Origin: Pseudomonadota bacterium
Lineage (GTDB): Bacteria > Pseudomonadota > Gammaproteobacteria > Burkholderiales > Sulfuricellaceae
DNA: 37,529 nt
Direction: 5' to 3'
NCBI GenBank assembly: GCA_021801705.1
Contig: JAJYXP010000042.1
Span: 1 to 37,529 of the forward strand
A program made the position numbers and the translations under genes. Below, piece by piece: positions 5,134 through 7,998 of this stretch. The notes under the pieces are model-generated. The model saw only the letters and a list, made by a program, of their open reading frames with translations. It did not search any database and was not told the DNA's origin. Within the stretch, counting starts at the first letter, position 1. Each line of letters opens with the position of its first letter.

Positions 5134-6216
5134 ATGAAACCATCCATCCAATCCAAGCTCGACCGGCTCGCCGAGCGCCTGGTCGAGCTGACCCAACTGC
5201 TGAGCAGCGGCGACGCCACGGCGGACATGGAGAACTATCGCCGCATTACCCGCGAGCACGCCGAGATCACGCCGGTGGTCGAGCTTTATCACAGCTTCCA
5301 GCTCGCCGAGCAGGATCTGAAAACCGCGCAGGACATGCTGTCCGATCCGGAAATGAAGGAATTCGCCGAGGAAGAGGCGCAAAACGCCAGGGAGCGGCTG
5401 GCGCAGATCGAACTCGACCTGCAGAAGCGCCTGCTGCCGAAAGACCCCAACGACGAGCGCAATATCTTTCTCGAAGTCCGTGCCGGTACGGGCGGCGATG
5501 AATCGGCCCTGTTCGCGGGCGACCTGTTCCGCATGTACACGCGCTACGCCGAGCGTCAGCGCTGGCAGGTTGAAGTGCTGTCGGAAAGCCCCGGCGAGAT
5601 GGGCGGCTACAAGGAAGTCATAGCCAAGATCATCGGCCAGGGGGCTTATTCCAGGCTCAAGTTCGAATCGGGCGGTCACCGCGTCCAGCGCGTGCCGGCC
5701 ACCGAAACCCAGGGCCGCATCCATACCTCGGCCTGCACCGTCGCCGTCATGCCGGAAGCGGACGAGGTCGCCGAGGTCGTGCTCAACCCCGCCGACCTGA
5801 GGATCGACACCTTCCGCGCCTCCGGCGCCGGCGGCCAGCACATCAACAAGACCGACTCGGCGATCCGCATCACCCACCTGCCCACCGGCATCGTGGTGGA
5901 ATGCCAGGACGACCGCTCGCAGCACAAGAACAAGGCGCAGGCGATGTCGGTGCTGGCGGCACGCATCATGGACATACAACTACGCGAGCGCCAGTCCAAG
6001 GAAGCCGCGACACGCAAATCCCTGATCGGCAGCGGCGACCGCTCCGAGCGCATCCGCACCTACAACTTTCCGCAGGGCCGGGTTACCGACCACCGCATCA
6101 ACCTGACCCTGTACAAGATCGAGCAGATCATGGACGGCGACCTGGACGACCTGGTCGGCGCGCTGATGTCGGAGCATCAGGCGGAGATGCTGGCATCCCT
6201 GAGCGAAGGCAACTGA
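5134..6216 (+). CDS. prfA: Peptide chain release factor 1
   Basis: RF1 recognises UAA and UAG and triggers peptidyl-tRNA hydrolysis. The protein is 360 residues, the same length as the Escherichia coli protein. The stop-codon-reading tripeptide PAT is at 188-190 and the catalytic GGQ at 233-235 ([13 protein letters not shown]). The GGQ glutamine is the target of the methyltransferase PrmC, encoded downstream. In relatives prfA and prmC are usually adjacent; here a RAYT transposase unit of about 640 bp separates them. Confidence 0.98.
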
Positions 6217-6255
6217 GGCTGGCCGCCACTGCAATGGCCGCCGCCCTGAAAGCAG

Positions 6256-6287
6256 GGTAGGGTGGGCACGTCTTTGTGCCCACGCGG
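6256..6287 (+). repeat. REP sequence, left copy
   Basis: The sequence begins GGTAGGGTGGGCACG and contains the hairpin GTGGGCAC / GTGCCCAC with loop GTCTTT. Its inverted partner at 6862-6893 differs at a single position (T versus C in the loop region). It lies in the short gap between the prfA stop and the RAYT start. Confidence 0.9.
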
Positions 6288-6312
6288 ATTCGATATTTTA
6301 GAGTAAGCAACC

Positions 6313-6855
6313 ATGTCACGTTATCGCCGAGCATCGGCTGCGGGCTCAAGCTATTTCTTTACGGTGGTCGCTTACCGGCGGCAGCCGATTCTATGTGACG
6401 AAACGATTCGTGACGCATTGCGCGGCGCCATCGAAACGGTGCGTGTGGCGCGTCCTTTCGTCATTGATGCATGGGTTTTGTTGCCTGACCATTTGCATTG
6501 CGTGTGGACATTGCCTGAAGGCGATGCCGATTTTTCCGCCCGCTGGATGCTCATCAAGCGAGCGGTTTCCTTGGTCTGTAGAGAAGAATATCGTCGTGCC
6601 GACTGGGTGACGGCATCAAAACTCAAACATCGCGAATCGACCCTCTGGCAACGGCGATTCTGGGAACATCAAATTCGCGATGAAAATGATTTTGCCCGCC
6701 ATGTCGATTACGTTCACTTCAACCCGGTTAAACACGGGCACGTACAACATGCCGTTGATTGGCCTTATTCGACCTTTCACCTCTATGTGCGCGATGGAGC
6801 ATATGCGCATGATTGGGCTGGGGAGATGGAAAGTGCGGTGCTGGAATATGATTGA
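6313..6855 (+). CDS. rayT: REP-associated tyrosine transposase (RAYT)
   Basis: This 180-residue protein is a Y1 HUH-type nuclease related to the IS200/IS605 TnpA group. RAYTs cleave single-stranded REP DNA and are thought to spread or maintain REPs. The metal-binding HxH motif is in LLPDHLHCVW (about residues 56-65), and a candidate catalytic tyrosine is in ARHVDYVHFNPVKHG (about 136-150). The basic N-terminus and C-terminal WPYSTFHLYVRDG segment are also typical. The frame is intact. Its last codons overlap the start of prmC: prmC ATG at 6848 lies before the RAYT TGA at 6853-6855, so the two could be translationally coupled. Confidence 0.92.
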   Translation: MSRYRRASAAGSSYFFTVVAYRRQPILCDETIRDALRGAIETVRVARPFVIDAWVLLPDHLHCVWTLPEGDADFSARWMLIKRAVSLVCREEYRRADWVTASKLKHRESTLWQRRFWEHQIRDENDFARHVDYVHFNPVKHGHVQHAVDWPYSTFHLYVRDGAYAHDWAGEMESAVLEYD

Positions 6856-7747
6856 TGCTGCCCGCGTGGGCACAAAGGCGTGCCCACCCTACCTGGATCT
6901 GGACGACACACTGCGGCAAGGCGCCGAGGCGCTGGGTGCGACGCTGAATCTCGACCCGAGAGAAGCCCGCCTCGAAGCGCAAATCCTGCTCTGCCGCGTC
7001 CTCGGCCAAACGCGTTCCTATCTCGTCAGCCATGACCGCGATCCGCTTTCCCCGCGCCAGGCCGCCGATTTTAATGCGCTGCTCGAACGGCGGCTCAAGG
7101 GCGAACCGATCGCCTACATCCTTGGTGAACGCGAATTTCACAGCCTCCGTTTCAAGGTCACCCCGGACGTGCTTATCCCACGCCCGGAAACCGAGCTGCT
7201 GGCGGAACTGGCGCTGGCCCGCCTGCCCTCGGACCGGCCCTGCCGGGTGCTGGACTTGGGCACGGGCAGCGGCGCGCTGGCCATCACCCTGGCGCTCCAT
7301 CGCTCCCACTGCGAGGTGCTGGCAGTGGACCAATCCGCCGCCGCGCTGGAAATCGCGCGGGAAAATGCGCGCACGCTCGGGGCCGGCAAGCTCCGTTTCA
7401 TGCAAAGCGACTGGTACGGCGCGCTGGCAGAAGAGAAATTCGATCTCATCGTTTCCAACCCGCCCTATATCGCCGCCGCCGACCCGCATCTCGCGCGGGG
7501 CGATGTACGCTTCGAGCCTGATGAAGCGCTGGTATCGGGTGTAGACGGGTTGGACGCCATCCGCGTCATCGTCCGAGGCGCGCCGGCCCACCTCAACGCC
7601 GCCGGCTGGCTGCTGTTCGAACATGGCTACGACCAGGCCGCCGCCTGCCGCGAGCTGCTGAGGCAAGCCGGATTTTCGCTGGTTTCTTCAAGCAGGGATC
7701 TGTCCGGAATCGAGCGCGTCACCTGCGGCCAGATCAGCGCCGTTTAA
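6848..7747 (+). CDS. prmC: Release factor glutamine methyltransferase
   Basis: PrmC (HemK) N5-methylates the GGQ glutamine of RF1 and RF2 using S-adenosylmethionine. Motifs are complete: DLGTGSG (about 136-142) for SAM binding and NPPY (204-207) for the target glutamine. The N-terminal helical domain starts around LDDTLRQGAEALG. The ATG at 6848 gives 299 residues; an in-frame GTG at 6866 is an alternative. Residues 6-15 are encoded by a REP, and no ATG, GTG or TTG lies between that REP and the conserved domain. The native start was therefore apparently lost or replaced when the RAYT unit arrived. Longer in-frame starts inside the RAYT gene are unlikely to be used. Confidence 0.92.
   Translation: MIDAARVGTKACPPYLDLDDTLRQGAEALGATLNLDPREARLEAQILLCRVLGQTRSYLVSHDRDPLSPRQAADFNALLERRLKGEPIAYILGEREFHSLRFKVTPDVLIPRPETELLAELALARLPSDRPCRVLDLGTGSGALAITLALHRSHCEVLAVDQSAAALEIARENARTLGAGKLRFMQSDWYGALAEEKFDLIVSNPPYIAAADPHLARGDVRFEPDEALVSGVDGLDAIRVIVRGAPAHLNAAGWLLFEHGYDQAAACRELLRQAGFSLVSSSRDLSGIERVTCGQISAV
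6862..6893 (-). repeat. REP sequence, right copy, inside prmC codons
   Basis: This is the inverted partner of the left REP (31 of 32 bases identical). It is in frame with prmC and encodes residues 6-15 of the predicted product (RVGTKACPPY). The hairpin therefore also lies in the translation initiation region of prmC mRNA. Confidence 0.9.
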
Positions 7748-7805: not shown

Positions 7806-7982
7806 AACCCAGATTATCCATTAGGACGCGAGATGATGGCGAGGCGGGTTGCGAGACAGTTTCGTTGCTTGCGAGGAGTCCATGGTCGTTCCATGGACGA
7901 CGAACAAGCGGCGAAAATGGCCGCAAACCGGCCGCCAGCACTCGCGTAGGCGCAAAGCGCCGCCTAATGGATAATCTGGGTT
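7806..7982. repeat. 177-bp palindromic element with perfect 20-bp ends
   Basis: The ends at 7806-7825 and 7963-7982 are perfect 20-bp inverted repeats (AACCCAGATTATCCATTAGG and its complement). The interior is also partly self-complementary around a central GTCCATGG-TCGTT-CCATGGAC hairpin near 7880-7900. No coding potential is evident. It looks like a MITE-type palindrome or a large hairpin terminator. It separates the NsrR-like site and any promoter there from the DUF2249 gene. Confidence 0.8.
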
Positions 7983-7998
7983 TAATTCAGGAGCCGAA

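Follow-up and report, generated by a model that had tools for sequence, protein, structure and literature searches.

A REP–RAYT–REP unit at the prfA–prmC junction and the candidate start codons it brings to prmC

Organization of the prfA–prmC junction

The window, as we call the whole 37,529-nucleotide stretch of DNA analysed here, comes from a Sulfuricella-group genome in which a REP–RAYT–REP unit (6256–6893) occupies the junction of prfA and prmC. On the forward strand, prfA (release factor 1; 5134–6216) is followed by a 39-nt spacer, the left REP (6256–6287), a RAYT with an intact frame of 180 aa (6313–6855), the right REP (6862–6893, inverted, on the reverse strand) and prmC, which as proposed here extends from 6848 to 7747 and encodes 299 aa. 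An earlier, sequence-only reading had suggested that a RAYT unit separates prfA from prmC, and profile searches now name all three genes. PrfA scores 535.8 bits to TIGR00019. The RAYT scores 192.9 bits to NF047646, which describes REP-associated tyrosine transposases (cut-off 80), and 20.7 bits to Pfam Y1_Tnp, under the cut-off of 23. PrmC scores 305.1 bits to its family profile TIGR03534 (cut-off 199.1), and its nearest named relatives are Sulfuricella records and MAGs. Inspection by eye finds DHLHCVW in the RAYTs of both the window and its sister species (G009), together with DYVHFNPVKHG in the window and DYIHFNPVKHG in G009; we take DHLHCVW and DY(V,I)HFNPVKHG to be the HUH and catalytic tyrosine motifs. 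The NPPY motif of PrmC (N204–Y207), presumably the functional motif of the family, is invariant in 47 aligned sequences.

The two REP arms are 32 nt each and 97% complementary, with a GTAG foot at 6257–6260 and its counterpart CTAC at 6889–6892, so that two inverted REPs flank the RAYT. The pattern GGTAGGGTGGGCAC-loop-GTGCCCAC has 24 copies in the 2.84-Mb genome, and dropping its leading G raises this to 50 exact matches; the reversed-pattern control gave 0 hits. One RAYT, two inverted GTAG-REPs and a genome-wide population of cognate REPs also make up the REP–RAYT unit or REPtron (TnpA-REP) in the accounts available from PMC2817692 and PMC8266576. Unlike the REPtron as presented there, the unit in the window lies between two tightly spaced operon genes and apparently gives the second of them its start with its 3′ end.

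Repeats were also noticed elsewhere. Two REPs of the same genome are read in frame as C-terminal tails, one of a UvrD-type helicase whose frame is cut by the contig end (L155:37–64) and one of a DUF2069 membrane protein (L163:3080–3107). Downstream of prmC, an element of about 180 nt (7806–7985) with inverted ends CCCAGATTATCCATTAG, a sequence with 7 exact matches in the genome, is missing at this place in G009.

Reading frame and candidate start codons of prmC

The right REP shares the prmC frame and, counted from ATG6848, encodes residues 6–15 (RVGTKACPPY), as the sequence-only reading had it. That reading had further placed the only start codons ahead of the conserved domain within the REP or the last codons of the transposase. 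All canonical starts do lie inside the element, because no ATG, GTG or TTG occurs between the REP and GTG7169 (residue 93 counted from codon 6893); the last transposase codons, however, are not the sole place for them. In-frame ATG or GTG codons are found at 6803, 6809, 6833, 6848 and, within the REP, 6866, plus others higher up inside the RAYT. The ATGs at 6803 and 6809 (6803–6811) are also present in G009, and the GTG at 6833–6835, which has the strongest Shine–Dalgarno-like match (−8.4), is GCA there. These data support the conclusion that the REP supplies N-terminal codons of prmC whichever canonical start is used; a non-canonical CTG (6893–6895) is present as an alternative directly behind it.

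ATG6848 is the start that we propose. The transposase stop had been said to overlap this ATG. The two codons are in fact separate (ATG, 6848–6850; TGA, 6853–6855), and it is the RAYT and prmC ORFs that share 8 nt, ATGATTGA (6848–6855), identical in G009. If ATG6848 is the start, the stop–start overlap of a coupled gene pair is thus present as the same 8 nt in both species. The Shine–Dalgarno-like match of ATG6848 is modest and bulged (−4.6), yet better than those of hemA, prfA and the RAYT. The first base of the REP hairpin (−15.8 kcal/mol) lies 18 nt past the A of this ATG, close to the edge of an initiating ribosome. In the AlphaFold model of the 299-aa PrmC (mean pLDDT 92.6), residues 1–13 fall below 50 and the first long helix spans residues 18–33; on this model, the residues added by the REP should form a harmless disordered extension of PrmC.

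Two other start sites deserve consideration. If prmC began at CTG6893, the REP would be extragenic and serve as an RNA hairpin or DNA site only. This codon, which takes its C from the final base of the element, aligns with the start region of prmC in relatives, where TTG is found in G020 and, by eye, ATG in G001. Such a downstream start would fit the argument that the majority of N-terminal REPs in three species may be non-codogenic, because translation may begin behind them (PMC3733652). At 6893, however, there is no ATG, GTG or TTG, and initiation would have to occur at the foot of the −15.8 kcal/mol hairpin with a Shine–Dalgarno-like match of just −3.7. CTG starts are rare, and we consider this reading unlikely. 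If prmC were instead initiated at ATG6803 or ATG6809, with no role for RAYT termination, the tail would be 13–15 residues longer. Both codons are in frame in both species, with a Shine–Dalgarno-like match of −5.6 in the window; so long an overlap would, however, probably bring initiation into competition with RAYT-translating ribosomes, and a start at the upstream stop is presumably the commoner arrangement. We rate a start at either codon as quite improbable and retain ATG6848.

The junction in related genomes

A prmC ortholog was found in 10 of the 12 genomes of the genus comparison (G002 and G006 gave weaker matches only), and two of these 10 carry a RAYT at the prfA–prmC junction: that of the window and G009, whose PrmC and RAYT are 94% and 88% identical to those of the window. 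Elsewhere the junction varies. In G010, G005 and G011, 15 nt separate prfA from the prmC ATG, and PrmC begins MPATLDTNLRQ or MPATLDTSLRQ. REP-like repeats lie flush with prfA in G003 and G004, where the TAG stop of prfA is the GTAG of the repeat and the prmC ATG comes after it; these two species (loci L015 and L016) are not sisters in the prmC tree. A different gene has been inserted between prfA and prmC in G008, G001 and the family member G021, and about 600 nt lie there in G007.

Candidate prmC starts were compared across 99 distinct loci. An ATG, GTG or TTG lies 0–3 codons ahead of the codon aligned with 6893 in 58 loci, and a start 13–25 codons ahead of the reference column is available in 78 (the 58 plus 20 more). 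Another 11 loci offer shorter starts only, and three have no start in the sequence available. The remaining seven include the window and G009, which have starts only at 28 (the GTG in the REP), 34 (ATG6848) and beyond, as well as L017, L032, L077 and L099, with a start at 26–31. Because these four loci lack a RAYT, a longer PrmC N-terminus is not remarkable by itself. The tail sequence is another matter: the sequence-only reading would have failed had RAYT-less relatives carried the same residues, and ACPPY occurs in the window and G009 only among the 99 loci.

The recurrence of the arrangement in G009 also bears on the idea that it is an assembly or binning artefact, for which it can be said that the genome is a draft of 79 contigs, or that prmC is a pseudogene here. 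The gene is full length, with a dN/dS of 0.21 between the window and G009, and no other PrmC-like match in the genome comes close to it (E of 1e-30 or worse versus 2e-186). This reading is largely refuted, and we assign it almost no weight. Judged by its dN/dS and the invariant NPPY motif, PrmC looks functional.

Among the 84 loci in which prfA was located, a candidate prmC start overlaps or touches the prfA stop (−14 to 0) in 21, and the prfA–prmC gap exceeds 300 nt in another count of 21, RAYT-like sequence being present in two of the latter, the window and G009. In seven of the 21 long-gap loci (the window, G009, L011, L018, L019, L079 and L098), a start in the prmC frame overlaps the stop of the ORF ahead of it, the overlap measuring 4 or 8 nt; a 7-nt overlap at a GTG in L145 was excluded because the overlapping ORF looks spurious. 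Given these overlaps, prmC seems to have replaced its partner with other genes too, although the seven of 21 carry no chance estimate. In L011, L018 and L019, the gene between prfA and prmC (LADALFTKVQQRVLGVLFG...) has a stop that overlaps the prmC ATG (ATGA). In L302, a RAYT is followed by a protein that, by eye, resembles the product of this gene and that has nucleotidyltransferase Pfam matches.

Proposed insertion of the unit and probable loss of the prmC start

The unit probably inserted into the very tight junction of prfA and prmC in an ancestor shared by the window species and G009, and in doing so removed the start codon of prmC. Most likely it landed on the prmC start, an insertion into the ATG being the simplest reading of the sequence; the TG of CTG6893 is possibly what remains of the lost ATG. 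In G009, the end of prfA matches the genus and the REP follows directly after its stop. Joining the G009 flanks (GGGGAATAA to TGGATCTGGAC) gives GGGGAATAATGGATCTGGAC, an overlapping TAATG after which PrmC would read MDLDTTLRQ, an outcome to be weighed against a chance of about 1 in 4 that any base ahead of TG makes an ATG, and against element borders that are assumed from the inverted repeat rather than independently fixed.

In the window, the 3′ end of prfA and the following 39 nt (together 6205–6255) look derived: PrfA ends in LSEGN, compared with LGGE, LGGEE, LGGED, LSGEG or LSGES in other genus members, and an exact search of 166 loci with the first 29 nt of the spacer (6217–6255) returned the window's own copies only. 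The spacer contains ATGGCCGCCGCCCTGAAAGCA, which by eye resembles the prmC starts of G003 and G004. We considered the stretch at 6234 (ATGGCCGCC...) as a relic of the old prmC 5′ end and rejected it, since G009 lacks the stretch and its 29-nt core was confined to the window's copies in the same 166 loci. A REPIN site at a sensor-kinase locus was likewise tried for fixing the element borders; G010 and G009 hold other sequence there, so it provides no clean empty site. One intergenic site (L160:3020–3160) differs in sequence between the window genome, G009 and G010, at least two of the three sequences being palindromic GTAG repeats, which suggests fast repeat turnover at fixed sites.

Survey of RAYT 3′ junctions and a second case at hypF

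To place the prmC junction among others, we compiled 190 RAYT loci from genus, order and class searches, including some distant or fragmentary RAYT-like matches; these are the best-scoring RAYTs from 150 order and 274 class genomes rather than a random sample. After exclusion of three duplicates and nine loci with less than 330 nt downstream, 178 junctions were examined for frames that stay open for 300 nt or more beyond the RAYT stop, a threshold that would miss shorter read-through genes. This yielded 27 read-through frames in 25 loci; a Pfam scan covered 25 of the 27 plus the prmC of the window, of which the G009 gene is a 94% ortholog. At three of the 178 junctions, prmC twice and hypF once, a conserved gene has no canonical start in the interval from the REP to its domain, corresponding to two independent events. 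Two broken-looking genes were not counted: L268, without a Pfam match and possibly, in our view, a methyltransferase N-terminus, and L290, with a HupE_UreJ match from profile position 102. L201, L222, L262, L302 and L312 have, by eye, their own ATG after the element. In a slightly larger set of 182 junctions, the right REP end was recognised in 131, and 126 of these 131 offer one or more start codons in a non-RAYT frame that stays open through the REP, a count given without a shuffled control.

The hypF case lies in a one-contig genome of the same family (G014), in the order hypB–REP–RAYT–REP–hypF (L192:1445–2100; hypB named by eye), with the TAG stop of hypB formed by the GTAG of the REP. The hypF frame contains ATGs at distances of 23, 17 and 11 nt upstream of the end of the RAYT stop. 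In this frame the REP reads ...GHASLCPPY, and six residues further on the acylphosphatase domain begins; the only canonical starts ahead of the conserved domain come from the RAYT and REP. Each of the five genus relatives with a hypF match has a candidate start 13–24 codons ahead of the VQGVGFRP motif, and the nearest one in G014 lies 29 codons ahead, inside the RAYT. Joining the flanks at this site gave, by eye, no start. The RAYTs of the window and G014 share 47% identity, and the frame in which the REP is read is the same at both sites, with CPPY at its end.

Selection on the RAYT and its REPs

The sequence-only reading had offered coupling to prmC as the reason why the RAYT is kept. Comparison of the window and G009 RAYTs, which differ by no indel, does not bear this out: dN is 0.056, dS 0.213 and dN/dS 0.26 (NG86; bootstrap 95% interval 0.14–0.47, with values of at least 1 in 0 of 500 replicates), and two other methods give 0.31–0.33. 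The range of 0.26–0.33 shows the RAYT protein to be under selection of its own; the low ratio therefore points to conservation of the protein itself, which is enough to explain retention. Coupling as the explanation is not supported, because for coupling it would suffice that the frame stays open and terminates in the correct position. Dependence of prmC could add to RAYT retention, without being needed for it. Both REPs are unchanged between the window and G009, whether coding or non-coding, as is ATGATTGA, and the 45 nt from 6848 to 6892 differ at one position, outside the REP. We rejected this as evidence of coding selection on the REP tail, since the non-coding left REP is equally conserved.

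Discussion

The prfA–prmC pair is among the five gene pairs for which translational coupling has been demonstrated directly in E. coli (PMC7538156), which makes coupling of the RAYT to prmC plausible by analogy. The downstream gene is the same, and the upstream stop is likewise close by; unlike in E. coli, the upstream partner in the window would be a transposase. We infer that translation of the RAYT to TGA6853 would promote initiation at ATG6848 in the overlap or, less likely, at another in-frame start inside the RAYT. Ribosomes would then read through the right REP, which is stop-free in this orientation, adding a short disordered tail to PrmC, and the transposase would have replaced prfA as the coupling partner of prmC. 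Re-initiation by the same ribosome is argued against as the mechanism of coupling in PMC7538156. Taken as a whole, we consider it probable that the unit inserted, that prmC lost its start, that initiation at ATG6848 became coupled to the RAYT, and that the RAYT is kept by selection on its own protein.

REPs within ORFs have been reported, with NH2-terminal cases outnumbering those at the end, and their GTAG ends often provide TAG stops to neighbouring genes (PMC3733652); GTAG-derived stops recur here, and a REP is probably read as N-terminal codons here too. Many of the N-terminal cases in that study were judged to be possibly misannotated starts. The present case differs from those, as far as that source describes them, in that prmC has no canonical start downstream and that the element concerned is a complete transposase unit instead of a lone REP. 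Palindromic elements of Rickettsia (RPE-1) likewise add residues to proteins, and N-terminal ones are reported to be expressed in vivo, as cited in PMC3733652; they are a different element, and their description there includes no start-codon donation by a transposase. The matches listed in our literature searches contained no earlier report of start donation or N-terminal fusion by RAYTs. N-terminal REPs are thus already published, and start donation by a whole RAYT unit would be new.

To our knowledge, the field has yet to explain what allows RAYTs to persist in genomes. Because the right REP is stop-free and the RAYT 3′ end usually carries out-of-frame starts, RAYT units might act as general start-codon donors: insertion into a tight operon would make the RAYT the obligatory translational leader of the next gene, a translational hostage that helps to fix the RAYT, and domesticated transposases would be retained in this way. 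We regard this generalization as doubtful. PMC3733652 leaves open whether N-terminal REPs of proteins are genuine or result from misannotation, and prmC and hypF, two unrelated conserved genes neither of which has a canonical start outside the element, make that question directly testable. In addition, prmC, which belongs to a pair known for translational coupling, has probably exchanged its upstream partner for a mobile element.
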